Assembly (NCBI RefSeq): GCF_004803635.1
Contig: NZ_SSWX01000018.1
Span: 1 to 64,000, forward strand
DNA from: Lampropedia aestuarii
GTDB lineage: Bacteria; Pseudomonadota; Gammaproteobacteria; Burkholderiales; Burkholderiaceae_C
Length of the DNA stretch: 64,000 nt
Direction of reading: 5' to 3'
This document shows, piece by piece, positions 51,419 to 55,621 of this stretch (positions are counted from its first letter, which is position 1; each line of letters begins with the position of its first letter). Position numbers and translations under genes: made by a program. Under the pieces are notes generated by a model that saw only the letters and a list, made by a program, of their open reading frames with translations, was not told the origin of the DNA and searched no databases.

Positions 51419-52474
51419 ATGCATCCATTTTTCCAACATTTAGGCCTGCGCTACCCGCTCATTCAAGCCCCAATGGCGGGCGTGCAAGACTTCCGCCTGG
51501 CTTTAAGCGTTGCGCAAGCAGGCGGCCTAGGCTCACTGCCATGCGCGACCTTGAGCGCCCAGGCCCTGCAAGAGAACCTGCAAGCCCTGCGCCAATCCCT
51601 GGGCGCAGATTCCGCCATCAACGTCAACTTCTTTTGTCATAGTGAGCCTGCCATCACTGCAGAAGCCGAGCAGCGTTGGCACAAGGCCCTGGCGCCGCTG
51701 TACGAAGAACTGGGGCTCGATAGCCAAGCGATACCTGGGCTGCAATCAGGCCGCCAGCCGTTCACAGCGGCCTTGGCCGATCTGATAGCGCCTTTTAAGC
51801 CGCAAGTGGTGAGCTTTCATTTTGGCTTGCCGCCTGCCGCCTTGGTCGAGCAAATCAAAAGCTGGGGCGGCCAAGTGATTGCCAGCGCCACCACCGTGGC
51901 AGAAGGCGAGTGGCTGCAGGCACATGGTGCTGATGCCGTCATCGCCCAAGGTCTGGAGGCGGGAGGCCATCGCGGCCACTTCCTCAGCCGCGATACCAGC
52001 CTGCAAATGGGCACCTTCGCGTTGGTGCCCCAACTGGTGCAGGCGCTGCGCATTCCTGTCATCGCCGCCGGCGGTATTGCCAGTGTAGAAACGGTGCGCG
52101 CTGCGATGGCCTTGGGCGCTGCAGGCGTGCAAGTGGGCACAGCCTATTTGCTCAGCCCCGAGGCGCAAACCAGCGCCGTGCACCGCCAGGCGCTGCAGTC
52201 ACCGGCGGCCAGGCACACCGCCTTGACACGTGCGTTCACAGGCGGCGCAGCGCGTGGCATTGTCAACCGGGCCATACAAGCCCTGAATACACAGGATGCG
52301 GACATACCGGCCTTCCCACTGGCCAGCAGCGCCATCGCGCCGTTGCGCAGCCATGCCGAGGCCCAGGGACTGGGGGACTTCACACCGCTATGGTCAGGCC
52401 AGAACAACCAGCTGCTGTCGAGTGAGTCGGCAGCGGTGATCACCGAGCACTTGGGACAAGCCGCGCTGCAGTAA
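51419..52474 (+). CDS. Nitronate monooxygenase family protein
   Basis: FMN-dependent TIM-barrel enzyme (2-nitropropane dioxygenase family), 351 residues, oxidising alkyl nitronates. It begins MHPFFQHLGLRYPLIQAPMAGVQDFRLALSVAQAGGLGSLP; other family blocks are FHFGLPP, VIAQGLEAGGHRGHF (catalytic His region), PVIAAGGIASVETVRAAMALGAAGVQVGTAYLL. The start at 51419 has AAGGAA upstream; the frame runs on to 51329 without a site. Monocistronic. Confidence 0.93.
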   Translation: MHPFFQHLGLRYPLIQAPMAGVQDFRLALSVAQAGGLGSLPCATLSAQALQENLQALRQSLGADSAINVNFFCHSEPAITAEAEQRWHKALAPLYEELGLDSQAIPGLQSGRQPFTAALADLIAPFKPQVVSFHFGLPPAALVEQIKSWGGQVIASATTVAEGEWLQAHGADAVIAQGLEAGGHRGHFLSRDTSLQMGTFALVPQLVQALRIPVIAAGGIASVETVRAAMALGAAGVQVGTAYLLSPEAQTSAVHRQALQSPAARHTALTRAFTGGAARGIVNRAIQALNTQDADIPAFPLASSAIAPLRSHAEAQGLGDFTPLWSGQNNQLLSSESAAVITEHLGQAALQ

Positions 52475-52592
52475 CAGGCTGTACGCGGCGCTATACCTTC
52501 GTATACCTTGGCCATCTATTGGTAGCCAATCGCGATGCCAATGCGCGCTTGGCTTGCGTGCGTGTTCCACGCACAATTGCGCCCTGTGATGA

Positions 52593-52666
52593 GCAGGATC
52601 AACCTGCCCATTACCCTTTAGTTGGCTTGCCTCTCATTGATCCTGCAGGCATTGCAGGATTGATCC
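52593..52666 (+). promoter_or_regulatory. Competing hairpins in the mgtE 5' leader
   Basis: Segment 1, GCAGGATCAA (52593-52602), is the exact complement of segment 2, TTGATCCTGC (52637-52646). Segment 2 (ATCCTGCA, 52640-52647) is also the exact complement of segment 3, TGCAGGAT (52653-52660), with a 5-base loop. TTGATCC at 52660-52666 offers segment 1 a second partner. Only one of the 1:2 and 2:3 stems can form at a time. The arrangement sits 30 bases before the leader-peptide start, as expected for an attenuator or riboswitch. Confidence 0.6.
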
Positions 52667-52695
52667 AAGCCATGTTTTAACCCCAGGAGAAAACC

Positions 52696-52764
52696 GTGGA
52701 CCCAGACCCGAATTGGCCCGATGCGGCCAACTCAGCGACCAAGCGTTTTTCACACACCCCATAG
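52696..52764 (+). CDS. Predicted acidic/proline leader peptide upstream of mgtE
   Basis: GTG start with AGGAG (52685-52689) six bases upstream; 22 codons and a TAG. The product begins MDPDPNWPD, continues AANSATKRF and ends SHTP. The N-terminal run of Asp and Pro is the same kind of sequence as enterobacterial MgtL (MEPDPTP...), where acidic/proline codons destabilise ribosomes at low Mg2+ and switch on the transporter gene. It lies between two sets of competing hairpins and upstream of two Mg-related genes. I infer, and have not shown, that it is a magnesium-sensing leader peptide. Confidence 0.6.
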   Translation: MDPDPNWPDAANSATKRFSHTP

Positions 52765-52834
52765 CTTTGCAGGCGCTGCGTTGTTCACCTAAGACGGGCT
52801 GAACTCCAAGAGCCTGAAGCTCAAGGAGTATTTC

Positions 52835-53182
52835 ATGCTGTTTCAACAACTGCGCCCTAGCAAGCACCTGCAAGTTTCTCTGCGGGCGGCCATTGCATCA
52901 CACCGCCCTGCGGCCTTGAAAATCATGTTCGACCACCACGGCGAGGCCGTGTTTGCCCACGCGCTCGCTGGGCTGTCCAAGCGCGCCGTCGCAGATGCGC
53001 TGTCGATGCTGCCTGCCGCCGACCGCCACCGGGTGCAACTCCATTTGCCCAAGCCCTTGCGCTACAGCATCACGCAAGCTGCCAGTCTGCGCCCTTCGTG
53101 CATCAGCACCGGCCTTGGCGCGCAGCACGCCCCAGCCAGCAATACCGGCGCAATCCCAAGAGCTGCCGCTGTGAACCTTTGA
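52835..53182 (+). CDS. Small protein with an MgtE-N-like segment
   Basis: 115 residues, AAGGAG eight bases upstream of the ATG. Residues about 30-75 (FDHHGEAVFAHALAGLSKRAVADALSMLPAADRHRVQLHLP) resemble one superhelical repeat of the MgtE cytosolic N domain, whose pattern in mgtE next door is IGAMPADKRADLFKQLSADEQTALL. The last 40 residues are low-complexity Ala/Ser. No membrane segment. It lies between the leader peptide and mgtE (89-base gap), in the same orientation. It could be a detached regulatory N domain, a longer translated leader, or a degraded duplicate of mgtE's 5' end. Confidence 0.6.
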   Translation: MLFQQLRPSKHLQVSLRAAIASHRPAALKIMFDHHGEAVFAHALAGLSKRAVADALSMLPAADRHRVQLHLPKPLRYSITQAASLRPSCISTGLGAQHAPASNTGAIPRAAAVNL

Positions 53183-53217
53183 TTCCAGGCCCTGTCGGGC
53201 CCGGTTCCCGATGCATG

Positions 53218-53261
53218 GCGTGAGGCAGCACCTGCCTCGCTGGCCAGCCCCTGCCTCACGC
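53218..53261 (+). promoter_or_regulatory. Alternative hairpins abutting the mgtE ribosome binding site
   Basis: GCGTGAGGCAG (53218-53228) is the perfect complement of CTGCCTCACGC (53251-53261). Within it GAGGCAG (53222-53228) can instead pair with CTGCCTC (53232-53238) across a 3-base loop. The GGAGAAG ribosome binding site begins at 53262, directly after the longer stem, so the choice of stem could control mgtE translation. Confidence 0.55.
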
Positions 53262-53271
53262 GGAGAAGAAC

Positions 53272-54654
53272 ATGACAGACACCACCAAATCATCCACCAT
53301 GGGCTGCCTGCTGGCAGCCAACGAACTGGAGTTGCTGCGCACCTTGCTGCCTGGCATCCACAGCGCTGAGATCGCACACGGCATCACTGCCATGCCGACT
53401 GCAGAGCGGCTGCGCGTTTTTTTATTGCTGCCACTGCGTCGCCAAGCCGATGTGGTCGGCTACCTGGACGCGCCCGAGCAGCTGGAGACCGTGCGGGCGC
53501 TCAAACGCCCTGATCTCATTGCCCTGATTGGTGCAATGCCGGCTGACAAACGCGCCGACCTGTTCAAACAGCTGAGCGCCGACGAGCAAACGGCCTTGCT
53601 GCCCGATATCGAGCTGGCGCAGCGCGAAGACATGCTGAAACTGGCGGCCTACCCCGAGGGCACGGCAGGTGCCATCATGACCTCAGAGTACGCGCATTTG
53701 CTGGCCGAGCTAAGCGCCAGCGAGGCCATTGAAGTGCTGCGCCGCGAAGCGCTGGACAAAGAGTTGATCTACCAGTGCTATGTGGTCGATGCGCACAAAA
53801 AACTGCAAGGTGTGGTCTCCTTGCCTGAGCTGCTTTTGGCCAGTGAATCGGCATGCGTCGGGGAGTTGATGCAAACGCACGGCATCGTCGGTCACGCCCA
53901 CGACAGCAAAGAAAGCACAGCCGAGAAAATCGCCAAATACGACTTGCTGGCCTTGCCGATTGTTGACGAGTCCGGCATTTTGCTCGGTGTAGTCACAGTC
54001 GACGATGCGATGGAGGTCAGTGAATCTGCACGTGGGCGCAATATGGTCAAATTTGGTGGCAATGCCAGCATTGGCAGCAGCCCCGATATCAGCCTGGCGC
54101 ACTCGTCGTTTCGGCAGATTTTCACGACCCGCGCCTTCTGGCTCAGCATCCTGACGATCTTTGGCATCATCACCAGCACCTTTGTTGCAGCGCAAGAAGA
54201 AATGCTCAGTGAAATTTTGATTCTCGCAGCCTTTATCGCACCGATTATTGACAGCGGCGGCAATACCGGCAGCCAGTCAGCCACCTTGGTAATTCGTGCC
54301 ATGGCTTTGGGTGAGACACAGCTGCGCTGGCGAGATTTGTGGCTGGTCATGCGCCGCGAATTACCCGTGGTGCTGGCGCTGGGCGCGGTTATCGGTGTGA
54401 TGGAGGTGGTGCTGGCTTACTTTAGCAAAGGCATTGGCGTAGAAGTCATGCTGATTGTGGGCCTGTCGATGTTCATCTGCATGGTGCTGGGCGGTTTGAT
54501 TGGTGCATTGCTGCCCTTCGCAGCCCGGTTCATCGGTGCTGATCCGGCAACCCTCAGCGCGCCACTGATCACCTCAATCATGGACTTGCTTGGCGTGGTG
54601 GTGTTTTTTGGCCTGGCTTACGCCTTCATGGGACATTTACTGACCGGCGCCTGA
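53272..54654 (+). CDS. mgtE: Magnesium transporter MgtE
   Basis: Mg2+-gated Mg2+ channel of 460 residues. Cytosolic N domain of helical repeats (about 15-130; MPTAERLRVFLLLPLRRQADVVGYL), CBS pair (about 135-265; YQCYVVDAHKKLQGVVSLPELLLA, LPIVDESGILLGVVTVDDAMEV), plug helix, then five transmembrane helices (285-460) with GNTGSQSATLVIRAMALGE and the pore Asp region ADPATLSAPLITSIMD. GGAGAA precedes the ATG. The complex 5' region suggests translational control. Followed on the same strand by mgtC. Confidence 0.95.
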   Translation: MTDTTKSSTMGCLLAANELELLRTLLPGIHSAEIAHGITAMPTAERLRVFLLLPLRRQADVVGYLDAPEQLETVRALKRPDLIALIGAMPADKRADLFKQLSADEQTALLPDIELAQREDMLKLAAYPEGTAGAIMTSEYAHLLAELSASEAIEVLRREALDKELIYQCYVVDAHKKLQGVVSLPELLLASESACVGELMQTHGIVGHAHDSKESTAEKIAKYDLLALPIVDESGILLGVVTVDDAMEVSESARGRNMVKFGGNASIGSSPDISLAHSSFRQIFTTRAFWLSILTIFGIITSTFVAAQEEMLSEILILAAFIAPIIDSGGNTGSQSATLVIRAMALGETQLRWRDLWLVMRRELPVVLALGAVIGVMEVVLAYFSKGIGVEVMLIVGLSMFICMVLGGLIGALLPFAARFIGADPATLSAPLITSIMDLLGVVVFFGLAYAFMGHLLTGA

Positions 54655-54886: not shown

Positions 54887-55621
54887 ATGCTGGAAAGCAA
54901 TTTCTACTCCACCAACTGGCATGCTCTGGGCATCATGTTCATCAATCTGAGCATGGCCTTTGTGCTTGGCGCGCTGATTGGTGTTGAGCGCCAATTTCGC
55001 CAACGTACCGCGGGCTTGCGCACCAATACCCTAGTCGCCGTAGGTGCGGCCATCTTTGTTTCTTTGGGGGTGCGCCTGTTTGATATCACCGGCGGGCCAC
55101 AAACGCCGATTCACATCGTCGCCTACGTCGTCTCCGGCATTGGCTTTCTGGGCGCGGGTGCGATCATGAAGGAAGGTGCGAATATCTCAGGCCTCAATAC
55201 TGCCGCCACCCTGTGGGGAGCCGGTGCCGTAGGGGCTTGTTGTGGCGCCGGTTTATGGGGTGAGGCTGCGATTGCCACCGTGTTTGTGATTGCTGGCAAC
55301 ACCTTGCTGCGCCCAGTGGTGAACCGCATCAACCGCAGCCCGTTCAACGAAGAGCACAGCGAGGCGCTCTACATGGTGCATGTGATTTGTAGCCGTGATG
55401 TGCGCTCGGATGTGCACGAGCAAATGGTGGAGTTGCTCGAGCAGGCGACCTACCCAGCGCGCCAAGTCGAAGACGAAGATTTTGGTGAGGACAGTGTGCG
55501 CATTGAATTTACCTTGTTTGCCACTGCGGTGCAGGGCGAAGAACTTGACCAAGCAGTGGCTAAGGCTGAGGCCTTGCCTGGTGTGAAACAAGCATTTTGG
55601 ACGGTCGGCGATGAAGGTTAA
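54887..55621 (+). CDS. mgtC: MgtC/SapB family protein
   Basis: Inner-membrane protein of about 244 residues from the ATG at 54887, preceded by TTGAGGACACC. Five hydrophobic segments carry the family motifs MAFVLGALIGVERQFRQRTAGLRTNTLVAVGAA and VSGIGFLGAGAIMKEGANISGLNTAATLWGAGAVGACCG. A C-terminal ACT-like cytosolic domain (about 150-240) follows. MgtC proteins are needed for growth in low Mg2+ and inside macrophages, and some modulate ATP synthase and PhoR. It overlaps the kinase gene by 11 bases. Confidence 0.93.
   Translation: MLESNFYSTNWHALGIMFINLSMAFVLGALIGVERQFRQRTAGLRTNTLVAVGAAIFVSLGVRLFDITGGPQTPIHIVAYVVSGIGFLGAGAIMKEGANISGLNTAATLWGAGAVGACCGAGLWGEAAIATVFVIAGNTLLRPVVNRINRSPFNEEHSEALYMVHVICSRDVRSDVHEQMVELLEQATYPARQVEDEDFGEDSVRIEFTLFATAVQGEELDQAVAKAEALPGVKQAFWTVGDEG

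Follow-up and report, generated by a model that had tools for sequence, protein, structure and literature searches.

A putative MDPDP leader peptide ahead of an mgtE operon in Lampropedia aestuarii and its candidate relatives in front of unrelated metal-transport genes

Does the short reading frame that stands in front of the Mg2+ transport genes of Lampropedia aestuarii encode a leader peptide through which the translating ribosome could govern those genes? In enterobacteria, the destabilisation of ribosomes by nascent chains containing acidic residues and proline is tied to Mg2+ control. The EPDP sequence of MgtL is described as making ribosomes drop off at low Mg2+ (PMC11282234), the model for Salmonella mgtA has a Rho terminator as its output (PMC11282234, PMC11552253), and mgtQ of Salmonella, in which acidic residues are required, frees the ribosome binding site (RBS) of mgtB (PMC8092293).

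A preliminary description of the window (the whole 64,000-nucleotide stretch of DNA analysed here) had claimed a 22-codon frame with an AGGAG site, and this is borne out at 52696-52764 on the forward strand (Table 1). It is a short ORF with a Shine-Dalgarno (SD) sequence in front of Mg2+ transporter genes, and an acidic-Pro-acidic-Pro series, here DPDP, directly follows the start at residues 2-5. The gene order suggests an operon, in which the gene next to the leader is orf115 rather than mgtE; both orf115 and the mgtC/sapB family gene had previously been overlooked. The start of mgtE is its own, 89 nt past orf115, and coupling of mgtE to orf115 is assumed. On balance we regard the frame as encoding a leader peptide at the head of an orf115-mgtE-mgtC operon, and as one of a family of MDPDP leaders.

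Table 1. Positions in the window of the leader, the segments around it and the genes that follow
Feature	Position	Strand	Basis or remark
Segment A, GCAGGATCAA	52593-52602	+	10-bp perfect stem with 52637-52646
Segment B, arm common to both exclusive stems	52637-52647	+	complementarity
Segment C	52653-52660	+	8-bp perfect stem with 52640-52647, 5-nt loop; B:C is the stable state
SD of leader ORF (AGGAG)	52685-52689	+	6 nt before start
Leader ORF	52696-52764	+	GTG start, 22 codons, MDPDPNWPDAANSATKRFSHTP, stop TAG
DPDP, leader codons 2-5	52699-52710	+	presumed ribosome-destabilising motif; layout as EPDP of MgtL, by analogy
Hairpin within leader, TTGGCC / GGCCAA	52713-52730	+	predicted fold
Candidate antisequester	52763-52777	+	pairs with 52808-52821 in truncated fold
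Hairpin ACTCC-aa-GAGC...GCTC-aa-GGAGT, predicted to mask SD of orf115	52803-52829	+	minimum free energy fold
SD of orf115 (AAGGAG)	52823-52828	+	sequence
orf115, 115-aa protein, helical, MgtE N-domain-like	52835-53182	+	no Pfam or NCBIfam name
mgtE, Mg2+ transporter	53272-54654	+	TIGR00400 (304.4 bits, cut-off 232.75), PF01769, PF03448
mgtC/sapB family gene	54887-55621	+	PF02308, PF21770

A search for orf115 in 10 genomes of the genus (E <= 0.001) matched one, the window's own, and homologues were found ahead of mgtA, mgtC and HlyD/RND genes. The orf115 profile aligns with the N domain of MgtE (hhalign probability 91.7%, pairwise E 7.9e-7). Its predicted structure is all-helical (mean pLDDT 73, pTM 0.54) and has the MgtE cytosolic domain as its first PDB match (E 0.11, TM 0.52), no match falling below 0.001. 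Judged from these profiles and models, orf115 is probably a stand-alone MgtE-N/FliG-like domain.

Upstream of the leader, three segments had been reported that form two mutually exclusive perfect stems of 10 and 8 bp, and these are indeed present, with B as the common arm. A perfect stem of at least 10 bp arises in 1.2% of 5000 dinucleotide shuffles of 52475-52695 (221 bp), and one with a competing stem of at least 8 bp in 0.06%; the competing arrangement occurs in 3 of 580 overlapping tiles of the window, including tiles over the locus itself. The 100 nt upstream of the leader fold with a z score of -4.6 (60 shuffles). Rarity by chance and unusual stability both favour the model of the preliminary description, in which translation of the leader drives an RNA switch made up of A, B and C, yet we consider that model very improbable. 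The segments lie upstream of the leader SD, beyond the reach of a ribosome on the leader. The B:C stem (-28.1 kcal/mol) is far more stable than A:B (-21.6 kcal/mol over the same 83 nt), a lead of 6.5 kcal/mol, so the two stems are not balanced, and the leader SD is left unmasked beside them (opening cost 2.8 kcal/mol). Conservation of the pairing was found neither among 299 genomes of the family, which contain no DNA similar to the leader region (15 marginal matches besides the window), nor among 26 other leaders, whose upstream 100 nt show no unusual structure on average (mean z -0.58, window included) and where the only outliers are L098 (z -3.2) and L112 (z -2.1). The regulatory role proposed for A, B and C is not upheld by these comparisons, and the stems are rejected as an element common to the family, as they were found in none of the relatives examined and the upstream folds of the other leaders are on average ordinary.

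The segments may also be viewed as DNA. The stretch 52640-52660 is a 21-bp perfect dyad, ATCCTGCA-N5-TGCAGGAT, which could be an operator, with one further half-site in A. That A, B and C are half-sites for a DNA-binding regulator, forming the operator of the operon, is a tentative and rather unlikely reading, and one compatible with a leader peptide. It draws on the position of the B:C dyad between the end of the upstream gene (52474) and the leader, on the occurrence of the dyad with up to two mismatches at 92 places in the 10 genus genomes, versus one for the reversed pattern, and on one other perfect copy, in genome G004, among the matches listed. However, four other places in the window's genome and the G004 copy all lie within long open frames, so frequent coding words (CTGCAG), and not operators, probably account for the excess, and the vicinity lacks a recognised promoter, no sigma-70-like sequence having been recognised in 52350-53300.

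Known RNA classes and plasmids were likewise considered. Rfam covariance models matched neither the window nor any of 16 leader loci, and an M-box or other Rfam RNA is rejected on that scan; a single sub-threshold match, to Glutamine-II, lies on the other strand (13.6 bits, E 1.3). The leader DNA has no match among plasmids.

If the peptide matters, its start should recur ahead of related transporters. MgtE matches at E <= 1e-30 occur in 17 of the 299 family genomes; besides that of the window, five are close (46-49% identity by alignment), and 399 genomes of the order supply one further close relative of about 50% identity. At E <= 1e-100 the order yields two MgtE matches in 399 genomes, the second of them without a leader, and viral contigs yield none. 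The regions upstream of the six close mgtE orthologues were examined independently of any motif search, and four (L004, L005, L007 and L008) carry an MDPDP leader of 29-37 codons with a strong SD before its start; the peptides begin MDPDPRPRP..., MDPDPSSCPR..., MDPDPSCLRY... and MDPDPSCHIP.... In L004 a gene of about 255 codons stands between leader and mgtE. No MDPDP leader was seen upstream of the close orthologues L006 and L147, nor at any of 12 more distant mgtE loci (L009-L020). Beyond the motif the leader DNA shows no similarity, so the beginning of the peptide has been kept while the remainder changes. Thus, of the conservation expected among relatives, the DPDP start and the strong SD are retained in four of six, whereas the three-segment pairing was not found. 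Frame conservation suggests that the leader is translated.

Searches with the peptide start itself extend the set. A pattern of SD plus MDPDP gives 24 matches in 22 of the 299 family genomes, and 19 of these are followed by a metal-transport gene on the same strand within 1.5 kb downstream of the match: MgtA in 8, MgtE in 5 (window included), MgtC in 1, Nramp in 2 and HlyD/RND in 3. The five others (L067, L074, L077, L080 and L089) look like chance. The motif is not commoner in the family genomes than its reversed control, so the raw number of matches is no evidence; their position is. A permuted motif (MPDPD) has 4 matches in 85 genomes, none beside metal-transport genes, although this control is weak because three of the four fall in long frames. 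Across GTDB, a stricter pattern gives 57 matches, of which 40 have ORFs no longer than 60 aa and 17 have a longer frame. Thirty of the 40 short ORFs are followed by a metal-transport gene within 3.6 kb (MgtA, MgtE or MgtC in 20, Nramp in 5, HlyD in 5), as against 0 of the 17 long frames. These counts are to be read with the overlap of the two sets, at least seven loci being in both, and with a prior expectation that comprised MgtA, MgtE and MgtC, the Nramp and HlyD references having been added after the matches were seen. The failure of the motif to exceed its reversed control is what a chance ORF would predict, but the position relative to metal-transport genes and the geometry of SD and hairpin described below make a chance origin of the window's frame extremely improbable, and it is rejected. 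The linkage counts, together with some of the relatives, bear out the view that this is a leader peptide of MgtL type, with an acidic and proline-containing start and a strong SD, tied to Mg2+ transport.

The linked MDPDP ORFs are 16-57 aa long and their hosts include Delftia, Variovorax, Tepidicella, Tepidimonas, Comamonas, Diaphorobacter, Curvibacter, Pelomonas, an Azovibrio, a Stenotrophomonas and Ktedonobacteria (Chloroflexota). The distribution is patchy: in the reverse direction, a leader was found within 1.5 kb upstream in 7 of 30 examined mgtA loci (52 mgtA matches in all). The leader had been presented as a device of mgtE; that linkage holds, but it is not exclusive, since the same leader precedes mgtA, mgtC, Nramp-type and HlyD/RND genes.

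Several neighbours of the leaders are of interest in their own right. HlyD/CusB-type genes follow the leader in L070, L078, L087, L097, L101, L104, L117 and L125; RND genes come next in several of these loci, and an orf115 homologue is present in L078, L101 and L104. By eye, a small frame with a conserved W-P/T/S-T-H/R-R-I/L/V-R stretch (for example WPTHRIRSFL) ends ahead of many leaders, including those of L090, L120, L126, L114, L144, L075, L072 and L076; no such stretch was seen by eye upstream of the leader in the window. A protein of about 250 aa with AGGHHSVDDAAILDPGQCQ or AGRPLATDDA is encoded between the leader and mgtA or mgtE in L068, L075, L079, L085, L086, L127 and L141 (the transporter is not reached in L127), and has no Pfam match in L086 and L127 and no NCBIfam match in L086. 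There are also long proteins that themselves start with MDPDP (L106, L131, L134 and L145), which by eye are of CNNM/CorC type or cation-diffusion-like; this may be coincidence.

The peptides also carry features beyond the first five residues. (DP)n and (EP)n expansions occur, as MDPDPDPDPDPDP in Delftia and MDPDPEPEPEPEP in Tepidimonas, with the extended motifs MDPDPDPDPDPDPARR ahead of a HlyD/RND operon in Delftia and MDPDPEPEPEPEPAC ahead of mgtE-mgtC in Tepidimonas. Codon choice is skewed: Pro5 is CCT in 27 of 47 leaders compared with 32 of 381 proline codons in the downstream genes (Fisher 2e-14), and Ser6 is AGT in 22 of 26 leader serines compared with 13 of 405 in the background (Fisher 4e-24). 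Close relatives and a few duplicates are among the 47 leaders; after reduction to 36 leaders, CCT remains the Pro5 codon in 21. The window leader is without rare codons after DPDP, using CCG and AAT. Base pairing was rejected as the reason for CCTAGT, its complement occurring once versus 6.5 expected (12 loci), and in the absence of a nearby excess of the complement slow decoding is the likelier reason.

Rare codons of this kind bring in the possibility that the leader senses something other than Mg2+, such as proline starvation, the activity of EF-P or EttA, or general ribosome stress caused by metals. The mgtP leader of Salmonella is described as responding to proline (PMC3641672), rare codons follow DPDP in many members, and HlyD/RND operons, which are not obviously Mg2+ genes, bear the same leader. 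Nonetheless the conserved start is without consecutive prolines, the acidic residues 2 and 4 and the (DP)n/(EP)n expansions fit ribosome destabilisation, and 20 of the 30 linked matches found GTDB-wide precede MgtA, MgtE or MgtC. We therefore regard a non-Mg2+ cue as unlikely, and Mg2+ as the presumptive signal.

How might such a leader act on the genes behind it? In most betaproteobacterial members a hairpin follows the leader stop, its 3' arm holding the SD of the next ORF. This was examined by equilibrium folding, on which all masking and switch statistics given here are based, in 34 of the 47 leaders. Of the 13 left out, five have no next ORF inside 260 nt (L094, L108, L124, L136 and L144), one has a doubtful next ORF (L143), two have their next start beyond 180 nt (L087 and L115) and five are near-duplicates (L079, L086, L088, L109 and L117). 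Measured as the cost of opening the SD against shuffles of the upstream part, masking is significant (p < 0.05) in 26 of 34 loci (Fisher 2e-25). In 24 less redundant loci, which still include several comamonads, loci of one genus not being independent, it is significant in 18 (Fisher 1e-17). Six next-gene starts were set by hand, and in L066, L072 and L076 the one chosen is that of an ORF of 25-45 aa, picked after the hairpin had been seen; without these six, 22 of 28 loci remain significant. In a sequence-only MAFFT alignment, in which the divergent members are by eye misaligned, the hairpin has 11 pairs, four of them with two-sided changes, and a covariation term of only 0.09.

The spacing of this hairpin is characteristic, the anti-SD partner beginning a median of 13 nt past the leader stop (range 4-39). 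A start at 13 nt is just beyond the edge of the footprint of a terminating ribosome. Moreover, the last codons of many leaders resemble the SD and pair, in the predicted folds, with the anti-SD arm. In 33 loci (the window is left out, its SD having no partner in that fold) this duplex is stronger than in dinucleotide shuffles (Fisher 1.4e-8, 9 loci individually below 0.05) and than after synonymous recoding (Fisher 4e-6, 11 loci). With a ribosome placed at the leader stop, opening the SD costs on average 2.07 kcal/mol more, compared with 0.21 more for synonymous and 0.06 more for codon-permuted leaders. Nine of 34 loci are individually below 0.05 with each control (Fisher 1.4e-5 and 3.7e-6; 1.7e-4 and 2.1e-4 in the 24 less redundant loci). 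When the fold takes in 6 nt of the next gene, the cost goes up in 24 of 34 loci and in the opposite direction in 10. Over the set of loci, then, the RBS of the next gene is masked by a predicted stem that is exclusive with one involving the leader ORF, and the antisequester signal is a property of the set as a whole.

These features can be joined in a model of translation control, which we somewhat prefer to the alternatives, in which the sensor would be the ribosome translating the MDPDP leader. With enough Mg2+, the ribosome would pass DPDP, finish the leader and cover its 3' end at the stop; the anti-SD arm some 13 nt further on would then sequester the SD of the following ORF, leaving the operon untranslated. 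At low Mg2+, the nascent Asp-Pro-Asp-Pro would, by analogy with MgtL, destabilise the ribosome and cause early drop-off, accompanied in many members, though not in the window, by rare codons after DPDP. The 3' end of the leader, in many cases an SD mimic, would then be free to pair with the anti-SD arm, so that the downstream SD would be released and the transporter made. In this scheme the direction of the switch and operon translation as its output are, like the signal, presumptive.

The window is an atypical member of the set. Its next start lies 70 nt after the leader stop, compared with 36-60 nt in 32 of the 33 others and 93 nt in L126, and its anti-SD partner 39 nt after the stop, compared with the median of 13. 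Masking depends on the length folded: compared with shuffles it is significant when 30 or 45 nt of orf115 are folded (p = 0.01) but not when 3, 12 or 20 nt are (p 0.62-0.99; 0.985 at 3). Support for a masked orf115 SD is thus moderate, and the predicted pairing of the candidate antisequester with 52808-52821 could possibly free it. Taken alone, the window falls short of significance in the switch test (p_syn 0.377), and the mechanism proposed for it is accordingly that of the family. These peculiarities count against SD unmasking, as do the loci of opposite sign, the minority that are individually significant, the near absence of covariation in the hairpin alignment, and the mgtA and mgtE loci, close and distant, that have no leader.

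The short-range layout is absent from L087 and L115, where the next start is distant, and from the leaders of Ktedonobacteria. The latter (L094, L105, L108, L124, L136 and L143) are nearly invariant around the start, AAGGAGGAACCGA-ATG-GACCCTGACCCTAGT, and have a common conserved hairpin further down, CTCAC..CTCGC...GCGAG..GTGAGG; the genes they accompany are Nramp or cation ATPase genes, with none for L105. An Rfam scan of four Ktedonobacteria loci gave no match, and the hairpin may represent another type of output RNA.

The same leader peptide might have a different output, namely premature transcription termination, with full translation exposing a Rho site and drop-off hiding it. In favour of this, MgtL and corL of Salmonella are described in this way (PMC11282234, PMC11552253), many leaders are by eye proline-rich and hence C-rich, and the gene behind the Ktedonobacteria leaders begins 307-527 nt from the leader start. 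In the betaproteobacterial loci, however, the SD masked by the recurrent structure lies within a narrow range of distances from the stop, which points to translation, and no intrinsic terminator-like site was found in 52350-53300, for which reason an intrinsic terminator is rejected as the output. Control by termination instead of translation is therefore improbable; the two outputs could also act together.

Set beside the systems already described, the ribosome-based leader proposed here has several partial counterparts. MgtL, the mgtA leader of E. coli and Salmonella, is likewise an ORF in the 5' leader of an Mg2+ transporter gene, and the likeness lies in residues 2-5, acidic-Pro-Asp-Pro, which are EPDP there and DPDP here (PMC11282234, PMC11552253). 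It differs in that a Rho site is exposed there whereas the recurrent structure here masks an SD, and in that the present leaders occur in other phyla, with several unrelated transporters and with an extra gene between leader and mgtE. The mgtQ ORF, between mgtC and mgtB of Salmonella, is also very short, with acidic residues and a strong SD, and alternative stem-loops mask or free the RBS of the next gene (PMC8092293); it is, however, an intergenic ORF of 8 aa with D2 and E5, in contrast to the linked MDPDP ORFs, which head their genes. In the Salmonella mgtCBR leader, the mgtP and mgtM ORFs control stem-loops, one of which masks the mgtC RBS, but mgtP contains a run of three prolines and responds to proline (PMC3641672).

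Two RNA elements invite the same comparison. The M-box riboswitch (ykoK leader) is described upstream of mgtE, mgtA, corA and Nramp-related Mg2+ transporters, nearly the same gene set (PMC4072509). Unlike the MDPDP leaders it is an aptamer RNA and not a translated ORF. The mgtE motif SRC-65-1 of Thioalkalivibrio is a candidate RNA upstream of mgtE with the SD and AUG inside a stem; in contrast to the present family it is described as a riboswitch candidate in one genus (PMC11109978), and it could hide an MDPDP-like ORF.

The MDPDP family can accordingly be described as combining an MgtL-like start with mgtQ-like control of the RBS. While MgtL, mgtQ, mgtP and the M-box are already known, no report of an MDPDP leader for mgtE, nor of an Mg2+ leader peptide in Betaproteobacteria or Chloroflexota, was found in the open-licence literature searched. 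The chances seem to us evenly balanced that these leaders form a cross-phylum class of nascent-peptide Mg2+ sensors acting by ribosome abortion and SD unmasking. Such a class would span Betaproteobacteria, a Stenotrophomonas and Ktedonobacteria, and would control, besides some RND pumps, transporters of no fewer than four unrelated types (P-type ATPase, MgtE, Nramp-related and MgtC-linked).

If this is true, MDPDP leaders would be a protein-coding counterpart of the M-box riboswitch, a sensor module that has been combined with different transporters and with two or more types of downstream RNA. The generality of the scheme would then be directly testable, dozens of natural leaders offering varied spacings, (DP)n lengths and RNA switches. 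The leaders could also help to predict a role in Mg2+ homeostasis for Nramp-type and unannotated proteins such as orf115. Finally, if the same start serves unrelated transporters in distant bacteria, sensing of Mg2+ by the ribosome itself would seem to be widespread.
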